From an uncultured Sulfitobacter sp. (GTDB lineage: Bacteria > Pseudomonadota > Alphaproteobacteria > Rhodobacterales > Rhodobacteraceae), in assembly GCF_947497275.1 (NCBI RefSeq), contig NZ_CANMFS010000013.1, forward strand, positions 1-64,000: a stretch of DNA of 64,000 nt, in the 5' to 3' direction. The notes beneath the pieces are model-generated. The model ran no database searches. It worked only from the letters and a program-made list of their open reading frames with translations, and was not told the DNA's origin. Both the position numbers and the translations under genes were made by a program. Position 1 is the first letter of the stretch. Each line of letters begins with the position of its first letter. This document shows, piece by piece, positions 48,812 to 64,000 of this stretch.

Positions 48812-48830
48812 GAAGGGATCTATCCGTCGT

Positions 48831-49598
48831 TTAGAAGTTCAGCGTGAAAACGCGGCTCAGACCCAGGCGCACACGCCATTGGTCTTCCGATCCGGTGGCC
48901 GTGATCGGGCTGTCGGCGGCATCGTTGAGCAGCTTCTCATAGCTGACCGCACCCTCAATGGCCCATCTATCATCGAGGAAATAGGTGCCCTGCACCTCGA
49001 TACCCGCTGACATGGCACCGCCATCCGCGTCGTAGATCCCGAACGAAGACGCCGCCGCCTCGTCAGCAGTCACGCCGAAATAGGTGTTGGCATAGTCGCT
49101 GTCGCCGAAGTTCACGCGAGGGCCCGCGGTAAACAGCCAACGGTCGCTGGGGCGATAGATCAAGTCGGCACCCACGGTCCCGGTGACGGCGGTATGTCCG
49201 CCGATACCCTTGCGCACTTCGCCAAAGGCCTTCCAATAGGTCTGCTGGTATCCGATGCCGAAACCCAGCTCGACTGCTGTATCAATATCGTCAAGGCCCG
49301 TCAGCTCGTCATAGTCGTCGCTGTCCCGCTCGCCGATCACCTTGAACGCGCCAAAGTAGGTGAAGCCGTTGGCGGGGATGCCGCGCACACCGCTGCCGAT
49401 GTCTGTGCCGCCCCATTTCAGCGCGCCGAATTTGAAACCGAAATCCGCAGCACCCTGATAGTTGTCGGAACCGGGGTAATCGGGCACCGCAGCAGCACCA
49501 CCGCGCAGTGAGAAGTTGAAGGACCGGTCCTGCGCGGACGCTGGCAGGGCCAGACCGATCGCGAAAATGCTGGCAGACAGAAGGGGAACGAAACGCAT
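48831..49598 (-). CDS. MipA/OmpV family outer-membrane protein
   Basis: Outer-membrane beta-barrel (255 aa) of the MltA-interacting protein/OmpV family. Signal peptide MRFVPLLSASIFAIGLALPA with cleavage near residue 23 (ASA-Q). The mature part begins with FNFSLRGGAAAVPDYPGSDN, a family hallmark, and ends LSRVFTLNF with terminal Phe. The start at 49598 is chosen over 49661 because only it places the signal peptide at the N-terminus. It lies 130 bp after the TRAP dctM-like stop and probably has its own promoter. Confidence 0.92.
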   Translation of the reverse strand: MRFVPLLSASIFAIGLALPASAQDRSFNFSLRGGAAAVPDYPGSDNYQGAADFGFKFGALKWGGTDIGSGVRGIPANGFTYFGAFKVIGERDSDDYDELTGLDDIDTAVELGFGIGYQQTYWKAFGEVRKGIGGHTAVTGTVGADLIYRPSDRWLFTAGPRVNFGDSDYANTYFGVTADEAAASSFGIYDADGGAMSAGIEVQGTYFLDDRWAIEGAVSYEKLLNDAADSPITATGSEDQWRVRLGLSRVFTLNF

Positions 49599-49728
49599 CG
49601 GGGCAAACTCCAAAAACAGATGCGAACGCAGCAGCAGCGTCCGCGGATTGCGACCATTCATAAGCGCCGCGTTTCATCAAGTATATCGGGAAAATGATAT
49701 TTCCACCCCGCATGTTGCCGCTGCACCC

Positions 49729-51036
49729 TCACAAACCGGGCAACCACAGCGCGAGCTGCGGAAATGCGATCAACAGCACGACCAGAAGCATTGAGCAGGC
49801 CATATAGGGCAGTGCCGAGCCGTAGATTTCGCGCATCGTCGTTTCTTTGGGCGCCACGCCTTTCATCACGAACAACAGCAGTCCGAACGGCGGCGTGGTA
49901 AAACTGATTTCCAGCGCGAGCAGGATGATAAGCCCGAACCAGATCGGATCGAATCCCAGCGTTGCCGCCAGCGGAAAAAAGATCGGCACGGTGAGCAACA
50001 TCATCGAAATCTGCTCCATGAACATGCCGAGCAGCAAAAGGACCCCGAACATCACCAGCAGCATCGCGACCGGGGCAAGATCGAACGAGGTGGCCCAGCG
50101 GATCAACCCGCTGGACGCACCCGAGAACGCCAACAGCTGGCTGAACGTCGCGGACCCGAACACGATGAGATAGGCCATGAGCGTCACCCGGAGCGCGCCG
50201 ATCACCGATTTCTTCATCGAATCCCATGTCAGGCAGCGGAACAAAACGCCCAGGATCAACACCCCCAGCGCACCGAAGGCCGCCGCCTCGGAGGGCGTGA
50301 TCAGACCACCCACCATGCCGATCACGATGATGACCATCACCGATAGCATCGGCACGATGTCCCTGAACAGCAGCCCCAGCTTGGCACCGGTGTTCAGCGT
50401 CTCGACGTCATAGGCTGGGGCGGCATCCGGGTCGATCCGCGTTTGCACGTAGATCGTTGCAATATAGAAGGTCGCAAGGATCAGCCCCGGAACAACCCCC
50501 GCGATCAGCAATGCCCCCACATCGATTCGCGCCAGCGTCGCCAGCAGCACGGCCAGCGCCGAGGGCGGGATGATGATCGCCAAACCGCCGGTGCCGAGGA
50601 TCGGACCGATAGACATGTGTTTCTTGTACCCCCGGTTCGTCATCTCCGGCACCATGAGAGAGCCCAGCAGGGCGGTAGAGCCCATCGACGACCCCGACAG
50701 CGTCGAGAATGCGGTGCCGCCCAGCACCGTCACATACGACAGGCGGCCCGGCAGCCGGCCCAGCAGCTTGTCGATGGCATTGAACATGCGCGCGCCCAGA
50801 CCGGTGTGAAAAAAGATCTCTCCCATAAGAAGAAACAGCGGGATCGGCACCAGTGCAAAATTGGTCAGCCCGCCAAACCCGTTGTTGAGCATTAGGGTGA
50901 CACCGCGCGCGCCGCCCATGAAAAACCACGCGCCGATGATATTCGCTGCCAGAAACGCGAGCGCGACAGGCATACCGATCGCCATCAGCACGAGGATAGA
51001 GCCGATCAGCAGGCCGAGCGATTCAAACCATTCCAT
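49729..51036 (-). CDS. TRAP transporter large permease subunit (DctM-like)
   Basis: Inner-membrane transport subunit (435 aa) with about twelve hydrophobic segments. Typical TRAP-L elements are IPLFLLMGEIFFHTGLG, LSGSSMGSTALLGSLMVPEM, LGTGGLAIIIPPSALAVLLA and FTTPPFGLLLFVMKGVAP. The start overlaps the small-permease stop by one base (TAATG). With the DctP and DctQ genes it makes a complete three-part importer, transcribed from the leuCD-like genes. Substrate is likely the acid handled by the adjacent enzymes (inference). Confidence 0.95.
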   Translation of the reverse strand: MEWFESLGLLIGSILVLMAIGMPVALAFLAANIIGAWFFMGGARGVTLMLNNGFGGLTNFALVPIPLFLLMGEIFFHTGLGARMFNAIDKLLGRLPGRLSYVTVLGGTAFSTLSGSSMGSTALLGSLMVPEMTNRGYKKHMSIGPILGTGGLAIIIPPSALAVLLATLARIDVGALLIAGVVPGLILATFYIATIYVQTRIDPDAAPAYDVETLNTGAKLGLLFRDIVPMLSVMVIIVIGMVGGLITPSEAAAFGALGVLILGVLFRCLTWDSMKKSVIGALRVTLMAYLIVFGSATFSQLLAFSGASSGLIRWATSFDLAPVAMLLVMFGVLLLLGMFMEQISMMLLTVPIFFPLAATLGFDPIWFGLIILLALEISFTTPPFGLLLFVMKGVAPKETTMREIYGSALPYMACSMLLVVLLIAFPQLALWLPGL

Positions 51037-51542
51037 TATTCGTGAATTCCCGCTTCGCCGGAGTGCATGAGGTCAGCGCCGAATACGAAGCGACTGAATT
51101 CGATGGCCATGAGGCCAAAGCTGACCGGAAAAGCCAGCGTCAGTATCCATTTCGGGAAATAATAGGCCCGCACGTCCAGATCATTACGCGCGATATTGGT
51201 AAGCATCAGCTCCCCGCCTTTCCACGCCAGCATCACACAGACAGCAACGCAGAGCGCCGCCACCGTGCGGCTGACGATCCGGCGTGCGGAGCCGGGCAAG
51301 GCGGCCGTGACCAGCTCAATATGCACATGGCCTTTTTCGCGCACCAGCCAGGGCGCGCCCAGCATCGTCATGTACAAGATCGCGTATTCGGAAGAGGTGA
51401 ACAGCCACGCAAAAGGCTGCATTCCGAGATTGCGCATGGTGACGGACATGATGACGGAAATCATCAACCAGACAAGCATAAGTCCCGCGATGCCCGCCAT
51501 CGCGTAGAGTACCGCGCGGTACGCCTTGCCGATCAGTTCCAT
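51036..51542 (-). CDS. TRAP transporter small permease subunit (DctQ-like)
   Basis: Four-helix inner-membrane subunit (168 aa). Hydrophobic segments include AVLYAMAGIAGLMLVWLMIS and ILTLAFPVSFGLMAIEF. EYAILYMTMLGAPWLVREKGHVHIEL is the conserved loop of the DctQ family. It lies 57 bp after the binding protein and overlaps the large permease. Confidence 0.93.
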   Translation of the reverse strand: MELIGKAYRAVLYAMAGIAGLMLVWLMISVIMSVTMRNLGMQPFAWLFTSSEYAILYMTMLGAPWLVREKGHVHIELVTAALPGSARRIVSRTVAALCVAVCVMLAWKGGELMLTNIARNDLDVRAYYFPKWILTLAFPVSFGLMAIEFSRFVFGADLMHSGEAGIHE

Positions 51543-51599
51543 TCTGTGCGCCGCCTCCGTAAGACAGGCGCACGGGTGATCCCGCGCGCCACGTTTCGT

Positions 51600-52598
51600 C
51601 TATTTGTCGTAAAAAAGCTCGATCAGCTTGTCGTAGTTTCCAGCCCCCTGGGGCGCCTCTTCCATGAGGCTTTTCATGCGGTCCCACGTGTTCTGGACCG
51701 CTGCCGCCAGATATTCGTCGGCCGCGTCCCCTTCGAGCGTTACCACCGTCATCCCCGCCTCCTCGAGCGCCTTGAAATCTTCGTCGCGCACGGCGCCCAG
51801 CTTTTCGGCGGATTCTTTTTCGTGTGCAATCGCCACGTCCTGCACAATTGTCCGCGCCTCTTCCGACAGGCTGTTCCACTTCTCAAGGTTCACAATCACG
51901 CCCAGGTCGGTCGAGAAAAAGCACGGCTCGATCCGATAGTTCAGGAACTCGTTCCACTTCAGGTCGATCAAACCGATCTGGGTCCAGCCGGTCGCATCCA
52001 CGACGCCCCTCTCTAGCGCGGCGTAGACTTCGGTGGTGGGCAAGTCGATCACCTGCGCGCCGAGATAGTCGGTGAAGAACGCATTATAAACGGCGTTGCC
52101 GCGCAGCTTCAGTCCGGAGACATCCAGATTTCCGCTGTCGTCCAGCGCCGGCTCATCGCGCGTCCACAGGTTGTAGCAGACCCCGGAATCGAACCAGCCG
52201 AGGTATTTGACGCCCATCTTTTCCTGGTGGATCTCGTCGATCAATGCGATGCCGCCATTCTCGCGCACTTCGGCCGCGACCTTGTTCGACGTGACCAGCG
52301 CGTCTTTCTCGGGCAAGGCACCTGCGTAAAAGCTGCCGGGTGTGTAGACCATGTCGACGACACCGGCGCGCACCGCGTCGGGCTGCTGGAACATGCCGAT
52401 GGCCTCCGGTCCGCCGCGCACTTCGATCTGCACGACGCCGTCGCCCGCGTCGTTCACCTTGTCGACAAATTCCAGAAACGATTTCGTATAGATCAGCGAT
52501 TCGGGAAAGGCGTGCACGGCAGTGATCGTTTCCTGCGCATAGGCCGTGCCGGCCAGCGCCGTCGTGGCGAGGATGCCGCCGAGAATTGTATTTTTCAT
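51600..52598 (-). CDS. TRAP transporter substrate-binding protein (DctP-like)
   Basis: Periplasmic binding protein (332 aa). Signal peptide MKNTILGGILATTALAGTAY with cleavage near residue 21 (AYA-Q). DctP features include VDMVYTPGSFYAGALPEKDA, GLKLRGNAVYNAF with the conserved Arg that binds the substrate carboxylate in this family, and DLPTTEVYAALERGVVDATGW. It starts 48 bp after leuD on the same strand, with GGGAGAAAAACC upstream. The ligand is expected to be a carboxylate. Confidence 0.95.
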   Translation of the reverse strand: MKNTILGGILATTALAGTAYAQETITAVHAFPESLIYTKSFLEFVDKVNDAGDGVVQIEVRGGPEAIGMFQQPDAVRAGVVDMVYTPGSFYAGALPEKDALVTSNKVAAEVRENGGIALIDEIHQEKMGVKYLGWFDSGVCYNLWTRDEPALDDSGNLDVSGLKLRGNAVYNAFFTDYLGAQVIDLPTTEVYAALERGVVDATGWTQIGLIDLKWNEFLNYRIEPCFFSTDLGVIVNLEKWNSLSEEARTIVQDVAIAHEKESAEKLGAVRDEDFKALEEAGMTVVTLEGDAADEYLAAAVQNTWDRMKSLMEEAPQGAGNYDKLIELFYDK

Positions 52599-52646
52599 TT
52601 GGTTTTTCTCCCTTGTTGGTGACGCATTTCGCGCCTTTCATGCTTG

Positions 52647-53237
52647 CTATTGCGTGGGTTTCGTCCACGGATGCGCGGCAAGTCTGCCCGCCCAAAACTG
52701 TCTGATCGCGTCCGCGTGCTGTGCTGTCAGATCAATGTCGTCCCAGCCGTTCATCAGCTTTTGCCGCCAGACAGGGTCCAGATCAAAGGTCACGGTGGTG
52801 TCGCCTACGGTTACGGTTCCCGCGTCAAGATCCACGCGCGCCGACGCATCCGCCTGTCCAAGCGCATTGATCAGCGCCTCGATCTCCTCCGTCTTGATGC
52901 GTGCGGGAAGCAGGCCGTTGTTCACCGCATTGCCCGCGAAAATATCCCCGAAGCTGGGGGCGAGCACGGCGCGGACTCCGAAATCAACCAGCGCATAAAC
53001 CGCTGCCTCGCGGCTTGATCCGGTACCGAAATTGCGACGGGTAATCAGAACATCAATCTGCGCGTGGCGGTTCAAAGGATGATCTGCGTCATCCACACGC
53101 GCATCGTAGAGCAGGAACTCTCCATAACCATCCTTGCGCGGCTGCGACATGAACCGCGACGGAATCAATTGATCGGTGTCTACATTCGCCTGCGCCAACG
53201 CCACCGCACGCCCTTCGATCATGCTCCAGCCGCTCAT
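52647..53237 (-). CDS. LeuD-like aconitase-family small subunit (3-isopropylmalate dehydratase type), variant active-site loop
   Basis: Swivel-domain subunit (196 aa) of a LeuCD-type hydro-lyase. NVDTDQLIPSRFM at residues 18-30 and the substrate loop NFGTGSSREAAVYALVDFG at 69-87 are clear. Biosynthetic LeuD normally reads NFGCGSSREHAPWAL here, so Cys, His, Pro and Trp are all changed. There is no leuA or leuB nearby. The context (lyase, hydantoinase, TRAP importer) argues for a catabolic hydratase acting on a maleate- or citraconate-like acid (inference). The start overlaps the intended leuC stop (ATGA). Confidence 0.9.
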   Translation of the reverse strand: MSGWSMIEGRAVALAQANVDTDQLIPSRFMSQPRKDGYGEFLLYDARVDDADHPLNRHAQIDVLITRRNFGTGSSREAAVYALVDFGVRAVLAPSFGDIFAGNAVNNGLLPARIKTEEIEALINALGQADASARVDLDAGTVTVGDTTVTFDLDPVWRQKLMNGWDDIDLTAQHADAIRQFWAGRLAAHPWTKPTQ

Positions 53238-54627
53238 GTCCGCCCCTCCAGCAGGGGCCGCACATCGCCAGATGCCCGTTGACCGCAGCGGCGGCCACCA
53301 TCGCCGGGCTCATCAGGTGGGTGCGCGCACCGCGTCCCTGTCGGCCCTTGAAATTGCGGTTGGTGGATGACGCACAGCGTTTACCGTTCCCGACGCGGTC
53401 GCCGTTCATGCCGACACACATCGAACAGCCCGCATCGGCCCATTCAAGCCCCGCATCCACGAACACCTTCGCCAACCCTTCGGCCTCGGCCTGTTCCTTT
53501 ACCTGCGTGGACCCCGGAGACACCAACCCCGGCACCTTCGCGGTGCGCCCTTTCAGCACCGCCGCAGCCAGTCGCAAATCCTCGATCCGCCCGTTGGTGC
53601 ACGAGCCGATGAACACCTGATCAATGGCGATCCGGTCCAGCGGCGTACCTGCCGTCAGTTTCATATAATCCAGCGACGCGCGGGCGTGCGCCGCCTTGCC
53701 CCCCGGCAGGCTGTCGGGATCGGGTACCGCACCGGTGATCGGCAGCGCCTCTTCGGGCGTGGTGCCCCAGGTGACGGTCGGCGCGATGTCGCCCGCATCA
53801 AACGCCACCTCGCGGTCAAACGCGGCATCCCTATCGCTTATCAGCGCGCGCCAATCGGCAACCGCCGCTGTCCGGGCCTCGCCCGCCGGCGCGAACGGAC
53901 GCCCCTTGATATATGCAAATGTCACATCATCAGGCGCCACCATGCCCAGCCGCGCGCCGCCCTCGATCGACAGGTTACACAGGGTCATCCGCCCCTCCAT
54001 GCTCAGCGCCTCGACCGCCGCGCCGGTATATTCAATCGCGTGACCGCGCGCCCCGCCCGCGCCCAACTGCGCAATCCAGTGCAGCGCCATATCCTTCGCC
54101 GCGACCCCGGCGCCAAGCGCCCCGTCAAACCGAATGCGCATTGTTTCGGGCCGCTTTTGCCAGATCGTCTGCGTGGCAAGGATATGCGCCACCTCTGTCG
54201 CCCCGACCCCGAACGCCAGCGCGCCAAAGGCTCCATGGGTAGATGTATGACTGTCGCCGCAGTTGATCAGCAGCCCCGGCAGGGTCAGCCCCTGCTCCGG
54301 CCCGATCACATGCACGATCCCCTGCCCCGGATCGCGCAGATCGAATAGCTTGATCCCCGTCTCTCGCGCGTTCTCGCCCAGCGTCGTGATCATCCGGCGA
54401 ATGTCGGGGGCCATGTCGCCCGCCCGCGTCGGCGCGTAGTGATCGACAACCCCGAATGTCAGGTCCGGCTGTGCGACCGGCATACCGCGTTCCTTGAGCT
54501 TGGCAAACGCGTGGTGCGACCCTTCGTGCACCAGATGCCGGTCCACCCACAGCAGGGATGTGCCATCGTCGCGCCTGAGGATCTCGTGTGCGTCCCACAG
54601 CTTGTCGAGCATCGTGCGCGCCGTCAT
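53234..54627 (-). CDS. LeuC-like aconitase-family large subunit, frameshifted near the C-terminus
   Basis: [4Fe-4S] hydro-lyase large subunit. N-terminal MLDKLWDAHEI, NCGDSHTSTHGAFG, and cluster ligands Cys343 (GSCTNGR), Cys401 and Cys404 (CSMCVGMNGD) are present, followed by SPAMVAAAAVNGHLA. After codon 454 the frame runs into 72 unrelated codons ending at 53089, inside leuD. Inserting one base between 53267 and 53266 restores DVRPLLEGRT and a stop at 53234 that overlaps the leuD ATG, as expected. So there is a one-base deletion, real or from sequencing. The cluster site is unaffected. The start overlaps the GntR stop (ATGA). Confidence 0.9.
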
Positions 54628-55439
54628 TCCGCAGCCTCCTGCATCGCCTTGTTCACCACCGGCTCCCAATGCCGGCCTTCGCCGGCGCCCACACGGCTCA
54701 GCATCATCTCCAGCTTAAACATGTCGGGGCGGTAAAGGGCCGCGAGGTATTCCACCCCCCGCCCGTCCACGTCACGCACGACACGGTTGAGCGACAGCAA
54801 GGGTGCGCCGACGCTCAGCCCCAGCACCTCGGCGACGTCCGGCGAGGCGAGCGTCGCGCTGACGCTTTGATCCGCTGTCTCGACCTCGACGCCCGACCGC
54901 TCCAGCAACCGGAACAGCGGCGTCGTGGCCAGTTCGGCCTCGGTATAATTCTCGGCAATCGCTTCGGGGACGTAGGTCGTCAGATGCGAAAACGCCTGTC
55001 CCTCGACCAACCGCAAGCGCACGGCGGTCTGCACGCGCGCCTGCGAACCCAGCTTCATCGCGGCGGCGACGCCCGTGGGCGGCAGCCCATAGCTGAACGA
55101 CAGCAACCGCGCCGTCGTCGTCTGGCCCATCTCCACGACCTGCGGCATCAGCGTCGTGAAATCGGCAGCCATCGAGGGCGTCGCCGTCGATGCGCGTACC
55201 CGCGTACCGGCCCCCGCGCGCCGCTCGATCAACCCGTCCGCATCCAGCGCGTCCAAGGCACGGCGGACCGTGACCCGTGAGACGTTCAGCGCCGCCGCCA
55301 GCTTTTGCTCGCCGGGAAGGATGTCGCCGACCGGATAGACACCCCGCGCGATTTCGTCGTGCAACTGAAGATAGACACGCCGCGCCTTGCCCCCCTCGGG
55401 GAGGCCGCTCTGCGTTTTCACAGAAGGTCTGTCAGGCAT
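54624..55439 (-). CDS. GntR family transcriptional regulator (HutC/UTRA type)
   Basis: One-component regulator (271 aa). The N-terminal winged helix reads YLQLHDEIARGVYPVGDILP, then LAAALNVSRVTVRRALDAL, and the C-terminal UTRA ligand domain runs from about residue 100 (LSFSYGLPP to YLAALYRPDMFKLEM). It heads the leftward operon with leuC- and leuD-like genes and the TRAP importer, and is divergent from the hydantoinase operon. The 144-bp gap between them holds an inverted repeat suited to this family. Members bind small metabolites, often an intermediate of the pathway. Confidence 0.95.
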   Translation of the reverse strand: MPDRPSVKTQSGLPEGGKARRVYLQLHDEIARGVYPVGDILPGEQKLAAALNVSRVTVRRALDALDADGLIERRAGAGTRVRASTATPSMAADFTTLMPQVVEMGQTTTARLLSFSYGLPPTGVAAAMKLGSQARVQTAVRLRLVEGQAFSHLTTYVPEAIAENYTEAELATTPLFRLLERSGVEVETADQSVSATLASPDVAEVLGLSVGAPLLSLNRVVRDVDGRGVEYLAALYRPDMFKLEMMLSRVGAGEGRHWEPVVNKAMQEAAE

Positions 55440-55583
55440 ACTTTTGAACCCTTTCCGGTATGGCAAGCCTAACGGCGAAAAACACAAATGCAAGAAATCT
55501 ATCTGCTTTTGGCCGAAAAATTTGATCTATGCCTAACGTCTAATCTGTATTACAAAACATACAGCTTTCAGAGGAGGACAGAC
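55440..55583. promoter_or_regulatory. Divergent control region with inverted and direct repeats
   Basis: An inverted repeat CTGTAT-N8-ATACAG (55545-55564) lies 20 bp before the rightward GTG start. TTGATC (55522-55527) is 17 bases upstream of CTGTAT, so the repeat would cover the -10 and start site. GCCTAACG occurs twice in direct orientation (55467-55474 and 55531-55538), each next to a GGC/GCCGAAAAA element. HutC-type GntR proteins bind GT/AT-rich inverted repeats of this size, so autoregulation of both operons is likely (inference). Confidence 0.5.
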
Positions 55584-56150
55584 GTGCCGGTACTGCAAAT
55601 TCATGTGCTCGAAGGGTACTCGGACGCCGACAAGACCCGCCTGAGCCACGCATTGACGGACGCCGTGCGCATCGTCGTGCCCGCGCCGCCCGAGGCCGTC
55701 ACGGTCATGATCCACGAGATGCAATCGAACGACTACATGCGTGGCCGTGAACGGCGCACCCCCGCGCCTGCCCTGCCCGACCCCGCCGAAACCGTGCGTC
55801 GCTTTCTCGCCGCGATGGAGGCGCGTGATCTGGACACTGCGGGCAGCATGCTGGGCGCGGGATTCACCATGACTTTTCCAGCCACCGCACCGATGACCAC
55901 CCTGACCGAGATGATCGACTGGGCCGCGCCCCGCTACCGCTTTGTCGCCAAGACCTACGAAGGCATCGACGCAATGCAATCCGCTGGCGAGGCCGCAATC
56001 GTCTACTGTCGTGGCACATTGTCGGGCGAATGGCCTGATGGCACCGCCTTCGACGGCATCCGGTTCATCGACCGCTTCGAGGTGATTCAGGGCCTTTTGA
56101 CCCGGCAGGATGTCTGGAACGACATCGCAGAAACAAAGGCATTGTCATGA
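55584..56150 (+). CDS. 4-oxalocrotonate tautomerase / SnoaL-like fusion protein
   Basis: Two-domain protein (188 aa). Residues 1-62 are a 4-oxalocrotonate tautomerase domain: [20 protein letters not shown] gives the catalytic Pro at position 1 after Met removal. Residues about 67-188 form an NTF2/SnoaL-like cone ([20 protein letters not shown], then [12 protein letters not shown]). The GTG start at 55584 is fixed by the preceding GAGGAGGA and by the need for Pro2; the frame from 55488 lacks both. First gene of the rightward operon; its stop overlaps hyuB (ATGA). May isomerise an enol or unsaturated acid in the pathway. Confidence 0.88.
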
Positions 56151-57844
56151 CTACAGAAATCGACCCGATCACGCTGGCCGTACTGGCCGGACGCATGGAG
56201 CAGATCGCCGACGAGATGGACGCGACCCTGTTTCGTGCGGCCTTCAACCCGATCATCGCGGAGGCGCATGATGCCTCGCACGGCCTGTATCACGCGGTAT
56301 CGGGCGACACGCTGGTACAGGGCAAATCCGGCCTGCCGATTTTTGTCGGTGTGATGTCGTTCGCCGTGAAGGCGGTGATCGACAAGGCGGCGAAGAACGG
56401 TGATTTGGAAGACGGCGATATCTATATCTTCAACGATGCGCACATCGGCGGCACCCATCTGAGCGATATGCGCCTTGTCAGACCTTATTTTCACGATGGG
56501 AAGCTGTTTTGCTATCTCGCCTCGGTAGGTCACTGGCACGATGTGGGTGGTGCCGTGCCGGGCAACTACAACCCGGCGGCCACAGACGCGTTTCAGGAGG
56601 CTTTCGTGCTGCCGCCCGTGCGCTTGGTCAAAGGCGGCGAGACGCAGACTGACATCATCGAGATCCTCATGCGCAACACCCGCCTGCCGCAATCCGCACA
56701 GGGCGATCTGAACGGACAATTGGGCGCGCTCGACCTCGGCGTGCGCCGGATGGACGAGCTGTTGGCGGAATACGGTGCGGATACGGTACGCGCCGCATTG
56801 GATGCGCTGCAGGACCGTGCGGAAGCGTTGATGCGCGCAGAGCTTTCGGATCTGCCCGATGGCCGCTGGGAGGCGACAGATTACCTCGATAACGATGGCA
56901 TCACAGATACGCCGCTCGCGATCAAGGTCGCCCTTGAGATCAGCGGCGACACCATGACGCTGGATTTTGACGGCACCGCGCCGCGCTGTGCCGGTCCGGT
57001 CAACATCGCGCTGCCTACCGCGGTCGCTACGGCCTATGTCGCGATCAAACATATTTTCCCCAGCCTTCCGGCCAATGCGGGCGTGATGCGCCCCATCAAC
57101 GTAAAGATCCCTGACGGCTCGCTCCTGTGCGCCCCCTTCCCCGCCCCCGTTGGCGGATATACGGAGACGATCTTGCGGATGATCGACGTGATATTTACCG
57201 CCGCAGCCGGGGCCGCCCCGGACCGCGTGGTGGCCAACGCCTATGGCACGATCAACGCGCTGTCGATCTCGGGCAAGCGTGACAATGGTCAGCCGTGGGT
57301 AATGTTCAGCTTTTACGGCGGCGGGCATGGCGGCTCCGCCGAAAGCGACGGGCTCAACCACGGCAACGCGCCGATCTCCACCGCAACGATTCCGCCGATG
57401 GAAATCCTCGAGGCCGCCTATCCGGTGATGTTCAAACAGTGGGCCCTGCGCCCTGACAGCGCAGGCGCGGGGATGCATCGCGGCGGCATGGGTGCCACCT
57501 ATGAGATCGAAGTGCTGGAGGGCAACGGCGCGAAAGCGTTCCTGTTCGGAGAGCGCGGACGCTATGCCCCGCACGGCGTGGCGGGCGGCGGCGATGCGGC
57601 GCTCAACGTGTTCAGCTATGAGCAGGACGACGGCTGGCATCACCCGCCGATGGCCTCGAAAATGGTCGGTATCCGTCTCGAACAAGGGCAATCCGTGCGG
57701 CTCGACACACCCGGCGGTGGGGGGTACGGCGCACCCTCCGACCGCGCACCCGAAGCGGTGGCGCGCGACGTTGCCGCAGGGTTCCTCTCGCCCGACAAGG
57801 CCGACACAGACTATGGCCCGGCGTGGCAGGAGGTTACACAATGA
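56147..57844 (+). CDS. Hydantoinase B/oxoprolinase family protein
   Basis: HyuB-type subunit (565 aa) of an ATP-dependent cyclic-amide hydrolase or related carboxylase. Typical segments are [20 protein letters not shown] at the start, [35 protein letters not shown], and the C-terminal [10 protein letters not shown]. Characterised relatives with HyuA include 5-oxoprolinase, N-methylhydantoinase, caprolactamase and acetone carboxylase. The stop overlaps hyuA (ATGA), so the two are translationally coupled. Substrate unassigned. Confidence 0.95.
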
Positions 57845-59901
57845 GCAGCCGCATGATCGGTGTCGACGTGGGCGGCACATTCACCGACATTTTCGTTCTC
57901 GACGAAGCGACCGGCAAGGCGCAGGTCGCCAAGGTGCCGACAACGCGCCCGGACCAGTCGGGCGGGTTTCTGGGCGCCATCGGGGCGCGCGTCGATGACC
58001 TATCGACGGTGTCCGTTGTTGTGCATGGCACCACCGCCGGTACCAACGCGCTGCTCGAACGCAAGGGTGCCAAGATCGGTGTGATTACCACTGCCGGTCT
58101 GCGCGATGTGCTGGAAATGCGCCGCCGCGACCGACCCCGCACATGGGGTCTGCGCGGAGAGTTCACGCCCGTGGTCGACCGCGCACACCGTCTTGAGGTG
58201 CCTGAACGCACGCTTGCCGATGGTACAATCCGCACGCCCGTCGATCTCGACGCCGTGCGCGACGCCGCCCGCCAGCTGATCGCGGATGATTGCCGCGCCG
58301 TGGCGATCCTGTTCGCCAATTCCTACGCCAACGCTGAAAACGAGGTCAAAGCCGTCGCCGCCGTCCGCGAAATATGGCCCAACGCGCATGTCTCTTCCTC
58401 CTCCGAAATCCTGCCCGAGATCCGCGAGTTCGAACGGTTCTCGACCACCGCGCTCAACGCCTATCTTCAGCCCGAAGTGTCGGGGTACCTCAACCGGCTG
58501 GAAACCGCATTGAAGGATGGCGGGTTCGGGGGCGAGTTCATGATCGTGCAATCGAACGGCGGCGTGATGGATGTGGACACTGCGGCGAAATTGCCAGTGC
58601 GCACGGCGCTGTCCGGTCCCGCCGCCGGGGTGATCGCTGCAGGCTATATCGCGCAGGCAGCAGGTTTTCCCGACGTCATCACCGGCGATATGGGCGGCAC
58701 ATCGTTCGACGTGTCGCTGATTGCCAAGGGCGAAAGCATGCTGTCCCCGCAAACCTCCATCGACTTCGGCATGGTCGTCCGCTCCCCGATGATCGAAATC
58801 ACGACCATCGGCGCGGGTGGCGGATCCATCGCCTGGGTGGACAGAGGCGGATTGCTTAACATCGGGCCGGAAAGCGCGGGATCGACGCCCGGCCCTGTTG
58901 CTTACGGCCAGGGCAATACCCGCCCCACCGTGACGGATGCCAACGTGGTTCTGGGCCGGATCGACCCCGACAATCCCATCGGCGGCAAGCTTGCCCGTCT
59001 TGATGTAGAGGCCGCCAAGGCCGCAATCCTCGAACATGTGGGCAAGCCGCTGAACCTCGATGCGCTGGCCGCCGCAGAGGCAATCCTGCGCGTCGCCAAC
59101 AGCCGGATGGCGGGGGCGCTGCGGCTTGTCTCCATCGAACGCGGGTTCGACCCGAAACGCTTTGCATTTATGCCGTTCGGTGGCGGCGGCGCGCTTCATT
59201 CCGGTGCGATGCTGGCCGATGTGGGCCTCGCCCGGGCCATCGTGCCGCGCTATCCCGGTGTCACCTCCGCGATGGGCTGTGTCATCGCCGATATGCGGCA
59301 GGATTTCGTGCAGACCGTCAACGCCATGCTCGACGGGATCGATGCGCAGGCCATCGGCGCGCAGATGCAACGCCACGTCGACGACGGGCTCGCCATGCTC
59401 GACGCCGCGCGTACGACCTTTGAGGCGCGCGAGACCACATTCACTTTCGACATGGCCTACCTCGGCCAGACCCACACCGTTAGCGTGCCGGTGAATGTCG
59501 ATGTAACGGACGGGCAGGTGTCCGCACCGACGCAGGACCAGATCGGCGAAGCGTTCGACGGCGCCTACCGCGCCACATACGGTCGACTGCTGGCGAACGG
59601 CACCCGACGCGTGATCAACCTGCGCTCTGCGGTGACGGGCAAACGGCCGCGCTTTGATCTGGCCACGCTCGCCCCGGCGGGTGGTTCCGTCGAGGCGGCG
59701 TTCAAGGGCACGCGTCAAGTCTACTTCGATAGCGCGTGGCACGAAACCAAACTCTACGACAGGCTTGCCCTGCCGGTGGGTGCCGAAATTGCCGGTCCGG
59801 CGATTCTGGAGCAGCCGGACACGACCGTGCTGATCGAACCCGATCTTGTCGGGCGCATCGACGCCTTCGGAAATACACTGATTGAAAGGGCGACCCCATG
59901 A
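57841..59901 (+). CDS. Hydantoinase A/oxoprolinase family protein
   Basis: HyuA-type subunit (686 aa). The ATP-binding ASKHA motif is VDVGGTFTDIFVLD at the N-terminus, with HGTTAGTNALLERKGAKIG and ITGDMGGTSFDVSLI farther on. PFGGGGALHSGAMLADVG marks the C-terminal half. The start at 57841 overlaps the hyuB stop. Together the pair should open a lactam or imide ring, or carboxylate a ketone, at the cost of ATP. Genes for lyase, dehydrogenase and hydratase around it suggest a ring opening that yields a dicarboxylate half-amide (inference). Confidence 0.96.
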   Translation: MSSRMIGVDVGGTFTDIFVLDEATGKAQVAKVPTTRPDQSGGFLGAIGARVDDLSTVSVVVHGTTAGTNALLERKGAKIGVITTAGLRDVLEMRRRDRPRTWGLRGEFTPVVDRAHRLEVPERTLADGTIRTPVDLDAVRDAARQLIADDCRAVAILFANSYANAENEVKAVAAVREIWPNAHVSSSSEILPEIREFERFSTTALNAYLQPEVSGYLNRLETALKDGGFGGEFMIVQSNGGVMDVDTAAKLPVRTALSGPAAGVIAAGYIAQAAGFPDVITGDMGGTSFDVSLIAKGESMLSPQTSIDFGMVVRSPMIEITTIGAGGGSIAWVDRGGLLNIGPESAGSTPGPVAYGQGNTRPTVTDANVVLGRIDPDNPIGGKLARLDVEAAKAAILEHVGKPLNLDALAAAEAILRVANSRMAGALRLVSIERGFDPKRFAFMPFGGGGALHSGAMLADVGLARAIVPRYPGVTSAMGCVIADMRQDFVQTVNAMLDGIDAQAIGAQMQRHVDDGLAMLDAARTTFEARETTFTFDMAYLGQTHTVSVPVNVDVTDGQVSAPTQDQIGEAFDGAYRATYGRLLANGTRRVINLRSAVTGKRPRFDLATLAPAGGSVEAAFKGTRQVYFDSAWHETKLYDRLALPVGAEIAGPAILEQPDTTVLIEPDLVGRIDAFGNTLIERATP

Positions 59902-60500
59902 TCCCCGCGCGCACCGCACTTCTGACAATCGATCTTCAGAACGACTTTCTGCACCCCGAAGGCGCGTACGGACGTGCCGGACAATCGGCGGAGGCGATCG
60001 CGGCCCTGCCCGACCGGATCAAACCCTTGCGCGACGTGTTGCTCGCGGCGGGCGGTACATATATTTCCGCGCAGTTCACCCTGGTACCCGGACGCGCAGG
60101 TGAGCCGCTGATTGCCGAGCACCTCAGGACATTACGCCCATTCCTGACCAAGGGCGATTTCGCCCCCAACAGCTTCGGCCACGCGCTTACCGATACACTG
60201 GCCCCCGCCGATTTCACGGTCGAAAAGGTCGCCTATTCCGCCTTCTACCAGACCCGCCTCGAATATGTCCTCCGCAAAACGGGCATCGACACGCTGATCA
60301 TCGGCGGGATCGTAACCAACGGCGGTGTCGCCAGCACCGTGCGCGACGCGCATCTGCGCGACATTCACACGATCCTGCTGTCCGATGGATGCGCCGCGTT
60401 CAAGGCAGACGTGCACGATGCGACACTCGTTTCGCTCGGCTCGGTTTCGAAGATCACGACCTGCGCACAGGCCACCGCCCTGATTGGCGGTGCGTCATGA
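59898..60500 (+). CDS. Isochorismatase-fold hydrolase lacking the catalytic cysteine
   Basis: Member of the isochorismatase/cysteine-amidase fold (200 aa). Asp12 (LTIDLQNDF) and Lys110 (VEKVAYSAF) of the catalytic set are present. At the position of the nucleophilic Cys in amidases (TNVCVxST) it reads TNGGVASTVRD, so Cys is replaced by Gly143. Gly at this position is found in true isochorismatases such as EntB and PhzD, which hydrolyse vinyl ethers without a Cys. It may therefore not be an amidase despite its place after HyuAB. Starts and ends with ATGA overlaps. Confidence 0.92.
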   Translation: MIPARTALLTIDLQNDFLHPEGAYGRAGQSAEAIAALPDRIKPLRDVLLAAGGTYISAQFTLVPGRAGEPLIAEHLRTLRPFLTKGDFAPNSFGHALTDTLAPADFTVEKVAYSAFYQTRLEYVLRKTGIDTLIIGGIVTNGGVASTVRDAHLRDIHTILLSDGCAAFKADVHDATLVSLGSVSKITTCAQATALIGGAS

Positions 60501-61357
60501 TCCTGCGCAACCGGTTGACCGCTTCGGAAATCCTTATCGCGCCGGGCGTCTACGACGGGCTGACCGCCGCATTGGCCACCGATGCGGGGTTCGAGGCGCT
60601 GTATCTCTCCGGTGCCGCAGTCGCGTACACCCGGCTGGGCCGTCCCGACATCGGCCTGACCACGGCGAGCGAAATGGCGGAGACGATGGCGCTGATCGCG
60701 GACCGCACGGATCTGCCGGTGATCATGGATGCCGATACCGGCTTTGGCAACGCGCTCAATGCGCGGCGCACCATGCAAAGCTACGAACGCGCGGGCGCGG
60801 CCGCCTTGCAGGTGGAGGACCAGACCTATCCGAAGAAATGCGGGCATCTGTCGGACAAATCGCTGATCCCCGTCAACGAGATGACAGGCAAGATCGCCGC
60901 GATGGCTGATGCACGCCGGCACGATACGCTGATTGTCGCGCGCACGGATGCCATCGCAGTGGAAGGTTTTTCCGCCGCCGCGGACCGTGCCGATGCCTAT
61001 ATCGAGGCGGGTGCCGATGTTTTGTTCATTGAGGCTCCGCGCGACCGCGACGAGCTGGCTAACATCCCCGCGCGCTTCAAGGGCCGCGTGCCGCTGCTCG
61101 CCAACATGGTCGAAGGCGGCGCGACGCCGATTTCATCGGCACATGCGTTGCAGGAGATCGGATTCGACGTGGTTATCTTTCCCGGCGGCATCGTGCGCGC
61201 GCTGGCCCGCACGGCGCAGGATTACTATGCGAGTCTCCACAAAGCAGGCTCTAACAAGCCCTTCTCGGACCGGATGCATGATTTTGATGGACTGAACGAC
61301 GCCATCGGAACGCCGGAAATGCTATCTTTGGGAAAGAAATTCGATGGCCGATCCTGA
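60497..61357 (+). CDS. Isocitrate lyase/PEP mutase family protein (2,3-dimethylmalate lyase-like)
   Basis: TIM-barrel C-C lyase of the PEP mutase/isocitrate lyase superfamily (286 aa). The lyase loop is KKCGH (residues 113-117, Cys115), the mark of lyases rather than mutases. Mg ligands are Asp78 and Asp80 (PVIMDADTGFGN) and Glu107 (QVEDQ). Relatives include 2-methylisocitrate lyase, 2,3-dimethylmalate lyase and oxaloacetate hydrolase. With LeuCD-like genes in the same locus, cleavage of a substituted malate to pyruvate and a short acid is the best guess (inference). Overlaps its neighbours by 4 and 14 bp. Confidence 0.93.
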   Translation: MILRNRLTASEILIAPGVYDGLTAALATDAGFEALYLSGAAVAYTRLGRPDIGLTTASEMAETMALIADRTDLPVIMDADTGFGNALNARRTMQSYERAGAAALQVEDQTYPKKCGHLSDKSLIPVNEMTGKIAAMADARRHDTLIVARTDAIAVEGFSAAADRADAYIEAGADVLFIEAPRDRDELANIPARFKGRVPLLANMVEGGATPISSAHALQEIGFDVVIFPGGIVRALARTAQDYYASLHKAGSNKPFSDRMHDFDGLNDAIGTPEMLSLGKKFDGRS

Positions 61358-62723
61358 GGTCCAGCTGCCGCGCGAAAGTTACGATATCGACGTCGAAACC
61401 CTGATCATCGGCGCGGGCGCCTGTGGAATGGTTGCTGCACTTGCCGCGCACGAGGCGGGACAGGACGTTATGATTGTCGAAGCAGATCCGCTGCCGACCG
61501 GCTCAACCGCGCTCAGCGCCGGTCTGATCCCGGCCGCCGGCACCCGGTTTCAGCGCGCGGAAGCCATCGACGACACGCCCGACCTGTTTGCCGCAGATAT
61601 CCGCGCAAAGGCCCACGACGAAAACGAGCACGCGCTGGAAAACGCGCTCGCGCAAGGGGCGGCTCCGGTGATCGAATGGCTGGCCGATAGGCACGGCCTG
61701 CCGTTTTCCGTCATCACCGATTTCGATTACCCCGGCCACGCCCGGCGGCGGATGCACGGGCTGCCGGCCCGATCGGGAGCCGAGCTTATCGACGCGCTGC
61801 GCAGCAGGATCGAGGCGCTGGACATTCCGCTGATCTGCGATCGCCGCGCCGATGTGCTTTACGCCAAGGGCGCTCGCGTGTCCGGCGCTCGCCTTACCCT
61901 ACCCGACGGCAGCCACGAGACCATTGGCGCGGGACGCATTATTCTTGCCTGCAACGGATTTGGGGGAAATCGCGAGATGGTGTCCGCTCACATGCCCGAT
62001 ATCGATAACGGGGTGTGGTTCGGCCACGACGGCAATCGGGGCGAGGCCGTGCTGTGGGGCACGGCGTTGGGCGCCGCCACCCGGCATCTCGGCGCGTATC
62101 AGGGCCACGGCAACGTCGCCCACCCGCACGGGATACTGATCACATGGGCGGTCATCAGCCAAGGTGGTTTTCAGGTGAACATCGAAGGCAAACGCTTTTG
62201 GAACGAGGCGCAAGGCTATTCCGAGGCCGCGCGCGCCGTGCTCGCGCAACCGGGCGGTGTGGCATGGACCATTTTCGATGCGCGCATCGGGGGGACCGCA
62301 CGGCAATTCGCCGACTTCAAACAGGCGGAAACGCAGGGCGCGATATTACAGGCCGGCAGCATCGAAACACTGGAAGAACTTTGCAAGTTCCCGCGGGGCG
62401 TTCTTGCGGCCACAGTCGATGAACTCCCCTATGCAAAGACGGATTCCTTCGGACGCAACTGGGATGTGCCCCGCCTGCAGCCGCCGTTCTGCGCCGTTCA
62501 GGTGACAGGGGCGCTGTTCCATACCCAAGGCGGTCTGGACATCGATCCTGACAGCGCGCTGGTGCGCCGGGCGTCCGGCGGTTGCTTCGACAACCTGTAC
62601 GCCGCCGGAGGGGCGGCCTGCGGCGTATCGGGCGCAGGCGACAGCGGATATCTGTCCGGCAACGGTCTGCTGGCGGCCACGGTGCTTGGCTACATCGCTG
62701 GCACGCACCGCGTGCAGGGTTGA
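61344..62723 (+). CDS. FAD-dependent oxidoreductase (fumarate reductase/3-ketosteroid dehydrogenase-like flavoprotein)
   Basis: FAD-binding_2 family enzyme (459 aa). Dinucleotide motif LIIGAGACGMVAALAAHEAG at residues 20-39, GSTALSAGLIPAAGT after the first beta-alpha-beta unit, and the C-terminal FAD-binding AGGAACGVSGAGDSGYLSGN. No signal peptide and no heme motif, so it is a cytoplasmic dehydrogenase or reductase. Relatives dehydrogenate CH-CH next to a carbonyl or carboxylate (KstD, tricarballylate dehydrogenase TcuA, fumarate reductase). It starts 14 bp inside the lyase gene and ends the rightward operon, nearly touching the convergent aminotransferase. Confidence 0.93.
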   Translation: MADPEVQLPRESYDIDVETLIIGAGACGMVAALAAHEAGQDVMIVEADPLPTGSTALSAGLIPAAGTRFQRAEAIDDTPDLFAADIRAKAHDENEHALENALAQGAAPVIEWLADRHGLPFSVITDFDYPGHARRRMHGLPARSGAELIDALRSRIEALDIPLICDRRADVLYAKGARVSGARLTLPDGSHETIGAGRIILACNGFGGNREMVSAHMPDIDNGVWFGHDGNRGEAVLWGTALGAATRHLGAYQGHGNVAHPHGILITWAVISQGGFQVNIEGKRFWNEAQGYSEAARAVLAQPGGVAWTIFDARIGGTARQFADFKQAETQGAILQAGSIETLEELCKFPRGVLAATVDELPYAKTDSFGRNWDVPRLQPPFCAVQVTGALFHTQGGLDIDPDSALVRRASGGCFDNLYAAGGAACGVSGAGDSGYLSGNGLLAATVLGYIAGTHRVQG

Positions 62724-62724
62724 G

Positions 62725-63864
62725 TCAAACCGGTGTGGCTGCCTGCCAATCCGAGAGCGCGCAGGAAAGCCGGTCGAGCCCGTCCGACAGATTGACCGAC
62801 GCGCCGCCGCCCACGCCAAGACGGATATGTCCGGGTTGATCATAGGCGCTGCCCGGCAGCACGAATGTGCGGTAAGGATCGCCCAGAAGGAATCGCGCGA
62901 ACGCATCGCTGTCGATGCCCTCAGGCAAGCGGCCCAGCCCGATCAGACCAGCGCGCGGGCTGACCCAGCCAAGTCCCCGCTGCGCCGCGATCCACTCGTT
63001 CATCTGCGTCAGATGCGCCTTGCCCGCGCCGCGTGCCTGCGTCATTGCGGCGTCATAGCGGTCGGGGCGCAGTGCGACTTCGGCGATCACCTCGCCCATG
63101 ATGTTCATGATTTCCGAAGAGTTTTCGCGCAGGATCACCGCATCGCGCACCATACCTGCATCGGGACAGATCAGCCACCCGGTGCGCAGGCCCTGCAGAC
63201 CCAGCGCCTTGCTGACCGAGCCTGTGGTGATCCCGCGTGCGTACATCCCCGCGACGGAGGCCGCGCGCGGTCCGTTCCATTCCAGCCCGGCATAGACCTC
63301 GTCCACCAGCAGCCACGCACCCGCCCGGTCCGCGATGCGCACCACCTCGCGCAGCTCCGCATCCGACAAAAGATCCCCCGTGGGATTGTTGGGGTTGGTT
63401 AGAAAGATCATCCGCGTCTTTGCGGATACCGCATCCGCCAGCGCGTCCAGCGGCAGGTGCCATCCCTCCTCCTCGCGTCGCGTGACCTTGACGATATCCG
63501 CGCCGATCGCCTTGGCCAGAACCTCGGCCTGCGGCCAGCCCGGCGTCTCGATCACGATCTCGTCGCCCGGCTGCACCAGCTGCATGATCGCCAGGTAATT
63601 CGCCTCTGCCGCACCGGCGGTGATCAGAACATCGGCAGGCGTGAACAGGCCGCCCAGACTCGCCTGCCGTAAGACGTGCTCCTTCAGCTCAGGCAGACCG
63701 GTAAAATCACGGTTGTTCCAGTCCAGCCTCAGCGTCGGATCAAGGTCGGGCAGGAAATCGCCAAGCACCGGAGAGTCAGCCAGCGAGAACCCCACGATGG
63801 CTTCAGGCTCCGCTTGCGTGGTCTCCAGAAGATATTGAAACAACGTGTGTATCTTGACTTTCAT
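62725..63864 (-). CDS. Class I/II pyridoxal-phosphate aminotransferase
   Basis: Fold-type I aminotransferase (379 aa). The cofactor Lys219 is in TTGSVSKALGLQGLRTGW. NPNNPTG (157-163) and DEVYAGLEW (Asp188, Tyr191) are the PLP-ring contacts, and ITAGAAEANYLAI forms the phosphate-side loop. The start at 63864 gives MKVKIHTLFQYL; the longer frame to 63984 has no homology-like sequence. It is convergent with the FAD enzyme, 1 bp apart, and divergent from the partial gene at 63910. Whether it belongs to the hydantoinase pathway is unclear. Confidence 0.92.
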   Translation of the reverse strand: MKVKIHTLFQYLLETTQAEPEAIVGFSLADSPVLGDFLPDLDPTLRLDWNNRDFTGLPELKEHVLRQASLGGLFTPADVLITAGAAEANYLAIMQLVQPGDEIVIETPGWPQAEVLAKAIGADIVKVTRREEEGWHLPLDALADAVSAKTRMIFLTNPNNPTGDLLSDAELREVVRIADRAGAWLLVDEVYAGLEWNGPRAASVAGMYARGITTGSVSKALGLQGLRTGWLICPDAGMVRDAVILRENSSEIMNIMGEVIAEVALRPDRYDAAMTQARGAGKAHLTQMNEWIAAQRGLGWVSPRAGLIGLGRLPEGIDSDAFARFLLGDPYRTFVLPGSAYDQPGHIRLGVGGGASVNLSDGLDRLSCALSDWQAATPV

Positions 63865-63909
63865 TCCGCGCCCTCGCTTACTCGCGTGCAGTTGCGCGAG
63901 GTGATTGAC

Positions 63910-64000
63910 ATGAAAAACCAAACCCGCCTGAAGGGCAAACCCATTCGCATGGCGGTACTTGATTACGGTCTGTTTCAGGTCCACGCCAACGGGCGCATCA
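63910..64000 (+). CDS. Start of an unidentified protein, 3' truncated by window end
   Basis: An open frame begins ATGAAAAACCAAACC and reads MKNQTRLKGKPIRMAVLDYG, then LFQVHANGRI, to the window edge. Divergent from the aminotransferase with a 45-bp gap, which fits a real start. The fragment loosely recalls the N-terminus of metallo-beta-lactamase-fold lactonases, but 30 residues are too few to assign a function. Confidence 0.45.
   Translation, partial: MKNQTRLKGKPIRMAVLDYGLFQVHANGRI

Follow-up and report, generated by a model that had tools for sequence, protein, structure and literature searches.

Gene content and layout of the locus

The window analysed here comprises bases 1-64000 of contig 13 of an uncultured Sulfitobacter sp. 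(genome size 4.29 Mb), and its right-hand part carries a set of putative catabolic genes, which is the subject of this analysis (Table 1). According to the open reading frame (ORF) list and to Pfam/NCBIfam scans, the minus strand encodes a GntR-UTRA regulator, the two subunits of a LeuCD-type hydratase (LeuC, LeuD) and the three components of a TRAP importer (DctP, DctQ, DctM). The plus strand encodes a 4-OT/SnoaL fusion protein, HyuB, HyuA, an isochorismatase-fold protein, a lyase of the ICL/PEP-mutase family and an FAD_binding_2 protein. A previous inspection of the letters alone (the sequence-only reading) had named these genes, and the positions and families it assigned were all right. We also found, as it had described, that the genes form two divergent operons, which share one intergenic control region (55440-55583); our analysis located an inverted repeat there, which close relatives conserve. 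The translational-coupling overlaps it had mentioned could be read directly as five ATGA junctions: GntR/LeuC (54624-54627), 4-OT-SnoaL/HyuB (56147-56150), HyuB/HyuA (57841-57844), HyuA/isochorismatase (59898-59901) and isochorismatase/lyase (60497-60500). The FAD gene overlaps the lyase gene by 14 bases.

Table 1. Window coordinates of the module's features and the matches on which their assignments rest
Feature	Position	Strand	Evidence
DctM, TRAP large permease	49729..51036	-	Pfam PF06808, 271.7 bits
DctQ, TRAP small permease	51036..51542	-	Pfam PF04290, 81.2 bits
DctP solute-binding protein	51600..52598	-	Pfam PF03480, 88.3 bits; nearest solved 4mnc/4mni
LeuD-type hydratase small subunit	52647..53237	-	Pfam Aconitase_C; NF002458, 201.6 bits (cut-off 167)
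LeuC-type hydratase large subunit	53089..54627	-	Pfam Aconitase, 510.7 bits
GntR-UTRA regulator, HutC/PhnF-like	54624..55439	-	Family scans; ATG start read directly
Operator-like inverted repeat CTGTAT-N8-ATACAG	55545..55564		Sequence comparison of control regions
4-OT + SnoaL fusion, GTG start, Pro-1 kept	55584..56150	+	Pfam, alignment, structure model
HyuB	56147..57844	+	Pfam, 557.2 bits
HyuA, ATP-binding subunit	57841..59901	+	Pfam; CapA, 504.8 bits
Isochorismatase-fold protein, Gly for nucleophile Cys; Asp and Lys kept	59898..60500	+	Alignments
ICL/PEP-mutase-family C-C lyase (PKKCGHL, NMVEGG)	60497..61357	+	PrpB, 293.3 bits (cut-off 354.4)
FAD_binding_2 dehydrogenase	61344..62723	+	Family scan; Tyr292 and Tyr436

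Co-conservation of the gene set and exchange of its segments

A pattern scan, which together with plasmid records covered the bacteria outside the Pseudomonadota, yielded at least 442 confirmed HyuB loci, and we compared the best 80 of these 442 from named genomes, a choice that favours close relatives. With presence thresholds that were set after inspection of the data, HyuA was found in all 80 loci, the isochorismatase and LeuC in 75 each, the lyase in 73, LeuD in 72, GntR in 68 and the FAD enzyme in 67. A further 32 alpha- and betaproteobacterial loci, which derive from 28 alphaproteobacterial genomes minus the window's own and from five hits of a phylum search (L216 is the genome record of L170), contained HyuA in 32 cases, the isochorismatase in 27, the lyase in 24, LeuC and GntR in 22 each, LeuD in 21 and the FAD enzyme in 17. 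In contrast, isochorismatase, lyase, LeuC and LeuD were found in none of seven control HyuB loci (six loci of five genomes at 41-43% identity and the genome's own HyuB paralogue). Thus, the gene set is co-conserved far beyond chance and forms the single unit that the sequence-only reading had proposed. That reading had also counted the 4-OT/SnoaL fusion and the TRAP importer among the defining parts, and here it has to be corrected. The fusion was present in 76 of the best 80 loci but in only 6 of the 32 further ones, and it has a solved relative. DctP accompanied HyuB in 62 of the best 80 loci and in one of the 32. The importer is exchangeable: LivK was found in 12 of the 32 further loci, and by eye, without a family scan, a polar-amino-acid ABC system in L219 and L226 and a BMP-type ABC system near L238.

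Several properties of the sample affect these counts. Many loci stop at contig ends, so that absences are overstated, and most of the fetched stretches extend about 10 kb to each side at most. The isochorismatase of L238 (49.5% identity) fell under the 50% cut. Gene calls were codon-scored and can miss genes, for instance in the AT-rich loci L070 and L071, which were read from ORF lists. L105 and L106, both among the 80, share their contig number, their length and the position of the match, so that two assemblies probably contain the same contig here. The two loci are filed under Roseobacter and Flavobacteriia, respectively, and likely represent a mislabelled contig of a metagenome-assembled genome (MAG). 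With the exception of one MAG whose label is doubtful, every locus examined comes from the Pseudomonadota or from a MAG assigned to this phylum, outside of which the search covered the pattern scan and the plasmid records. In L179 (G614) and L180 (G647), the open frame of the HyuB match contains one TGA.

Other anchors gave a similar picture. When 295 genomes of the family were searched with the 4-OT/SnoaL protein, 55 of them matched at 58 places, and at 37 of the 58 (the window's own included) a near-whole fusion with at least 41% identity was present. Fifty of the 58 neighbourhoods were fetched (L034-L083), and these contained HyuB in 38 cases, LeuC in 37, HyuA and GntR in 34 each, isochorismatase and LeuD in 33 each, the FAD enzyme in 30 and DctM in 25; a lyase cluster was present in 40, and gene calls fail in two AT-rich loci. 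On plasmid records, HyuB proteins with at least 60% identity occurred in Sulfitobacter, Tistrella, Azospirillum, Paraburkholderia, Neorhizobium, Allorhizobium, Roseomonas and Variovorax, and among the matches listed (40 of 44) identities dropped from this level to 43%. In 385 genomes of the class, HyuB (at least 58% identity) was found in 28 and an isochorismatase carrying glycine at the nucleophile position (Gly-type) in 26. Both were present in 24 genomes, compared with about 1.9 expected by chance (26 x 28 / 385, kinship ignored), and thus the two proteins are nearly obligate partners. G878, which has the isochorismatase without HyuB, carries it beside the lyase and the FAD enzyme at a contig end.

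An aminotransferase gene (62725-63984) lies tail to tail after the FAD gene, outside the conserved set. A nitroreductase and a MipA-like gene (48134-49661) adjoin DctM and recur in the close relatives L034 and L087 but not in most loci.

Exchange of gene segments was seen when the lyase was used as anchor. For this purpose, 20 loci were compared, 18 from the 22 lyase-carrying genomes without this HyuB and those of G818 and G932 (L267 and L268 represent one genus). In five of the 20 (L261, L266, L267, L268, L274), the segment HyuB-HyuA-isochorismatase(Gly) is exchanged for a Cys-type isochorismatase and two PuuE-like hydrolases; these loci keep LeuC-LeuD-lyase and lack HyuB and HyuA. L261, with the order 4-OT/SnoaL (divergent), MmgE, GntR, five LIV genes, LeuC, LeuD, lyase, isochorismatase, two PuuE-like genes and FAD enzyme, is the usual operon with one segment exchanged, since regulator, ABC importer, FAD enzyme, MmgE and 4-OT/SnoaL are all kept. 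L266 retains GntR, TRAP and 4-OT/SnoaL, and fewer parts are kept in L267, L268 and L274. Eight of the replacement hydrolases were scanned and all scored far under the PuuE cut-off. Cyclic imide hydrolases of the PuuE fold exist. Because one segment can be swapped for other hydrolases, HyuB, HyuA and the isochorismatase would open a ring and free its nitrogen, and the hydratase and the lyase would do the remainder. The swap against unrelated hydrolases narrows the candidate chemistry.

Further variants were observed. L080 combines a dihydropyrimidinase-like hydrolase, a Cys-type isochorismatase, SnoaL, an AcnA-type hydratase and the lyase, and the same gene clusters recur in L081. Two genomes, Tistrella G818 (L218, L272) and G932 (L239, L277), carry HyuB-HyuA-isochorismatase and lyase/FAD enzyme/regulator at two different places. 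An acyl-CoA dehydrogenase and CaiB of Tistrella were considered as substitutes for the FAD enzyme and were rejected, since FAD enzyme and lyase are present in the second locus of the same genome. In L265, L271 and L273, SnoaL and the lyase stand beside genes that by eye are UbiX-like, CMD-like, a CoA transferase pair and CaiB, which is another context of the lyase. In L223, L078, L079 and L274, a methyltransferase-like gene and a small gene (about 100-112 aa) lie beside SnoaL-carrying modules, and L078 and L079 additionally have OYE, GMC and CMD-like genes resembling an upper pathway.

Properties of the encoded proteins and of the control region

The sequence-only reading had assigned the opening of a cyclic amide to HyuAB, and our comparisons agree with this. 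The Pfam domains Hydantoinase_A, Hydant_A_N, Hydant_A_C and Hydantoinase_B are all present, and the glycine-rich ATP-binding motif DVGGTFTD was invariant in 12 of 12 aligned sequences. The nearest curated or solved relatives were caprolactamase, N-methylhydantoinase and 5-oxoprolinase and not the ketone carboxylases, with scores for CapA (504.8 bits) and CapB (311.7 bits) that both lie under the curated cut-offs of 1000. These relationships support the prediction that HyuAB is an ATP-dependent cyclic-amide hydrolase. Alternatively, HyuAB might be an enzyme of the acetone/acetophenone carboxylase kind and a ketone might be degraded without ring opening. These carboxylases belong to the same superfamily, and the solved proteins nearest to DctP (4mnc/4mni, 165.5 bits; next best solved protein 60.9) are ones that we take to be binders of benzoylformate, the one hint at a substrate that the importer provides. 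However, HyuA scored well lower with ApcC than with the amide hydrolases, both among curated families (300.8 vs. 504.8 bits for CapA) and among solved structures (296.8 vs. 450.9 bits for N-methylhydantoinase, its nearest solved relative). HyuB remained below the ApcD cut-off (133.9 bits), the ORF list contains no third subunit in the operon, and the segment is the one swapped for cyclic-amide hydrolases. Taken together, we consider a ketone carboxylase highly improbable.

The isochorismatase-fold protein lacks the catalytic cysteine, as the sequence-only reading had stated. In a motif search, 126 of 129 distinct sequences showed glycine where the nucleophile would stand, and the other three were two truncated sequences and one with Gly-Gly; thus, all 127 sequences long enough to tell have glycine for cysteine. 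The active-site Asp motif was present in 129 of 129 and the Lys motif in 121 of 129 sequences (truncated ones included), and both residues were invariant in 12 of 12 aligned sequences. Nine isochorismatases inspected in other module types (L059, L063, L074, L080, L261, L266, L267, L268, L274) all have cysteine. RutB was the top curated family of the Gly-type protein. EntB and PhzD, which share the fold, also have glycine at this position. From the invariant replacement of Cys by Gly, we predict that this familiar fold catalyses a new type of reaction here or relies on assistance by the substrate.

Both hydratase subunits exceeded their family cut-offs (leuC 612.2 bits, cut-off 560.25; leuD 158.4 bits, cut-off 116.25), labels that leave the substrate unsettled. 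A role in leucine synthesis was rejected since the genome has another LeuC (G000:C6:137888, 56% identical), and thus the window's copy is not the only one of the genome. The loci compared contain two types of LeuCD: that of the window is leuCD-like, and the other is about 30-40% identical to it. For the latter, the one pair scanned exceeded the homoaconitase-family and LeuD/DmdB-family cut-offs. The two types are interchangeable, and this is consistent with the lower half of the pathway, hydratase plus lyase, as the sequence-only reading had conceived it. Compared with five relatives, the leuC frame of the window shows a one-base difference in length within its last codons and therefore overruns its usual stop into leuD in another frame (53089-53310); either a real frameshift or a sequencing or assembly error may be responsible.

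The KKCGH motif that had been ascribed to the lyase was read in the sequence as PKKCGHL. Among 127 distinct lyases, PK[KR]CGHL was present in 126 and N(M/I)(V/I)EGGxTP in 125. In five alignments these motifs were closest to those of the petal death protein 1zlp (PKKCGHM, NMIEGG), which we take to act on alkylmalates, and unlike those of the methylisocitrate lyases 1o5q, 1mum and 6t4v (KRCGHRP, NITEFG). The fungal 2,3-dimethylmalate lyase 3fa3 was also among the structure matches. For the lyase, a role as the PrpB enzyme of the methylcitrate cycle was rejected, since its score lies under the PrpB cut-off (Table 1), its motifs differ and no methylcitrate synthase of the genome matched over the cut-off. 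The outcome that the sequence-only reading had named as speaking against it, LeuCD and lyase being the genome's only leucine-biosynthetic and methylcitrate-cycle enzymes, was not observed, although the lyase is the sole PrpB-like protein found in the genome at E 1e-5. Three MmgE/PrpD-family genes lie elsewhere in the genome.

The FAD protein is similar to fumarate reductases of the flavocytochrome c kind. However, two tyrosines conserved in all 12 aligned sequences, Tyr292 and Tyr436, are aligned with two arginines of the fumarate reductase 1qo8. In fumarate reductases, this arginine pair binds the substrate carboxylates, and tyrosines at such places are typical of ketosteroid dehydrogenases. 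Since tyrosines replace both arginines, desaturation next to a carbonyl appears likelier than succinate oxidation. In the 4-OT/SnoaL protein, which matched over its full length, Pro-1 is kept in 20 of 20 sequences; it is about 60% identical to the solved proteins 9mua/9mup, and its structure model has a predicted local distance difference test (pLDDT) value of 91 and a template modelling (TM) score of 0.89 to the solved fusion.

The inverted repeat CTGTAT-N8-ATACAG ends 19 bases ahead of the GTG start of the plus operon, where a GGAGG ribosome-binding site is present. It has no other exact match in the genome; two more places match with one mismatch, compared with one place for the reversed pattern. 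With up to two mismatches the repeat was found in 64 of 86 divergent intergenic regions of close relatives, compared with a shuffled mean of 0.6, but this control overstates independence, since the 86 regions (window included, de-duplicated for identical sequence only) are related by descent and the motif was first noticed there. Other spacings (4 to 12) were found in 0 to 3 of the 86 regions. When at most one mismatch is allowed, 33 loci among the best 80 have the repeat, and each of these 33 matches lies in this control region or immediately ahead of the anchored operon. We infer that the GntR-UTRA protein, which reached the cut-off of none of the 25 families shown of 27, acts at this repeat. 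A scan of this region for promoters and terminators found nothing.

Candidate pathway and comparison with known systems

From these data we infer a module for the catabolism of a carboxylated cyclic imide, or of a hydantoin-like ring, via an unsaturated diacid to a malate analogue, which is then cleaved. For the imide-type scheme described next, we judge the chances of being right or wrong to be about equal. The importer, in the window of the TRAP type, would take up a small carboxylated cyclic-amide ring, most likely of the C-substituted succinimide/maleimide type. The FAD enzyme would desaturate this compound beside a carbonyl of the ring, and HyuAB would open the ring at the expense of ATP to a half-amide. 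The Gly-type isochorismatase may then remove the remaining nitrogen without a Cys nucleophile, perhaps via the neighbouring carboxylate of a maleamate-like substrate. Dialkylmaleamic acids self-hydrolyse, and since the half-amide of a dialkylmaleimide would be prone to this reaction, the protein could conceivably manage without a nucleophile. Addition of water by the LeuCD-type iron-sulphur hydratase would turn the alkylmaleate-like diacid thus formed into an alkylmalate-like acid, the cleavage of which by the lyase would supply central metabolism with a 2-oxo acid plus a carboxylic acid. 4-OT/SnoaL would serve as an accessory isomerase, and the module as a whole would be self-contained and substrate-induced, with the GntR-UTRA protein acting at CTGTAT-N8-ATACAG.

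An imide would explain all core enzymes and leave no leftover amine, whereas a hydantoin fits the kinship of the hydrolases better but leaves hydratase and lyase unexplained. In the hydantoin scenario, HyuAB would open a carboxylated 5-substituted hydantoin to an N-carbamoyl compound, the FAD enzyme would make an exocyclic double bond, the Cys-less isochorismatase would cut the enamine C-N bond in the manner of a ureidoacrylate hydrolase, and the rest would pass to hydratase and lyase. The relationships of HyuA to N-methylhydantoinase and of the Gly-type isochorismatase to RutB argue for it. So do the relationships of the replacement enzymes to N-carbamoylsarcosine amidohydrolase and allantoinase, a PuuE protein over the cut-off encoded directly after the FAD gene in L226, and racemase-family genes in L171 (two annotated, one with a weak family match), L272 (by similarity) and L070 (by eye). 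On the other hand, it is not evident why such a pathway should require a hydratase and a lyase of the alkylmalate type, and the core operon lacks an enzyme to deaminate an ordinary amino acid product. Neither an aminotransferase nor an amino-acid dehydrogenase is encoded in the core of the compact operons L229, L232, L236, L237 and L242, which favours the imide. We regard a hydantoin as rather unlikely.

A number of observations weigh against the imide proposal, and the racemase-family genes are among them. The replacement isochorismatase of L261 scored higher with N-carbamoylsarcosine amidohydrolase (113.5 bits) than with 3ot4/3uao (66.6 bits), presumably the maleamate amidase NicF, and the first replacement hydrolase of this locus is nearest to the PuuE allantoinase (110.5 bits); replacement isochorismatase, PuuE-like hydrolases and HyuAB thus also fit hydantoin chemistry. 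Without a Cys nucleophile, ordinary half-amidase chemistry is disfavoured. Among solved proteins, the lyase scored highest with 4iqd, which is intermediate and combines PKKCGHL with NMTEFG, so that the motifs sort uncleanly between the lyase groups. The lyase subfamily is broader than the module: 46 class genomes carry it and only 24 of these have this HyuB, which indicates that it serves more than one context. The HyuB genomes of L230, L231 and L233 have no isochorismatase and no lyase, either beside HyuB or genome-wide at the thresholds used, and their HyuB may serve a different purpose. In L240, LeuCD is missing and the lyase relative has only 42% identity; CoA transferases and other lyase types are present there. 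Finally, the inverted repeat was found, within one mismatch, in none of the 32 further, distant loci, and therefore informs on close relatives only.

In L230 and L233, whose neighbourhoods by eye are alike and look housekeeping-like, HyuB-HyuA (in L230 also MmgE) stand without isochorismatase, lyase and LeuCD, and their HyuAB probably has a separate function inside the subfamily. L240 combines HyuB-HyuA-isochorismatase with two CaiB genes and with HMG-CoA-lyase-like and RipC/CitE-like proteins, and a CoA-dependent version of the lower half is possible there.

A lactam or cyclic enamide was considered as a third type of substrate. Here, HyuAB and the Cys-less isochorismatase would form a split enamidase acting on a partly reduced oxo-pyridine carboxylate, and the formyl diacid produced would be isomerised to a dialkylmaleate as in nicotinate fermentation. 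That pathway has the same pair of hydratase and lyase, the LeuD variant falls into the LeuD/DmdB family, and the plasmid of Sulfitobacter sp. S190 carries a molybdenum hydroxylase and an annotated 6-hydroxynicotinate reductase downstream of the module (L172:18663-25695). However, no match to the reductase was found in any other locus compared, so that it was set aside, and the molybdenum hydroxylase has only distant relatives (29-36%) in three other loci. A B12 mutase or an enamidase was not noticed among the module neighbours, although no family-level search for either was made. We consider this scenario distinctly unlikely.

Within the imide proposal, tetrapyrrole-derived substituted maleimides (hematinic acid and relatives) might be the natural substrates and the module their bacterial route. 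HyuAB would open the imide, the Cys-less isochorismatase would free ammonia from a self-activating dialkylmaleamate, the homoaconitase/DmdAB-like hydratase would act on a methyl-homoaconitate-like triacid, and the lyase would yield pyruvate and glutarate. This combination of claims is a long shot. If true, the turnover of chlorophyll, haem and bilins, both in the sea and in soil, would include a step that had so far gone unrecognised, and the isochorismatase fold would have a new, nucleophile-free use.

For the module in general, all likely steps of a discrete pathway lie in one operon, and its hosts include many marine Rhodobacterales as well as soil and root bacteria (Azospirillum, Paraburkholderia, Neorhizobium, Roseomonas). 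Candidate operator and compact operon would permit a substrate induction screen, and a known substrate would add a compound class to the bacterial use of dissolved organic nitrogen.

The enzyme families of the module are each known. In the literature searched (title and abstract level, few subscription journals) we found no published work joining them and no paper on the gene context of the 9mua/9mup fusion; thus, their combination is apparently undescribed there and one fold is apparently used in a new way. The P. atlanticus 4-OT/SnoaL fusion (9mua, 9mup) is the same two-domain protein as that of the window. With the methylcitrate cycle (PrpB/AcnD), the module has the lyase family in common, but score, motifs and synthase context differ. 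The caprolactamase CapAB represents the closest curated HyuA/HyuB families, but it belongs to another operon and the scores lie under the cut-offs. In the degradation of creatinine via N-methylhydantoin, N-methylhydantoinase is followed by N-carbamoylsarcosine amidohydrolase; similarly, the module has a HyuAB-type hydrolase and then an isochorismatase-fold protein, but the latter lacks the cysteine, hydratase, lyase and dehydrogenase are added and the core contains no sarcosine enzyme. The lower pathway of nicotinate fermentation consists of the dimethylmaleate hydratase DmdAB and 2,3-dimethylmalate lyase. Hydroxynicotinate reductase, enamidase and methyleneglutarate mutase were not among the scanned genes of the window's module. 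Both systems combine a two-subunit hydratase of the aconitase family, for which one LeuD type of the module falls into the LeuD/DmdB family, with an ICL/PEP-mutase-family lyase, and to this pair the module adds HyuAB, a Cys-less isochorismatase, a flavin dehydrogenase and an importer.

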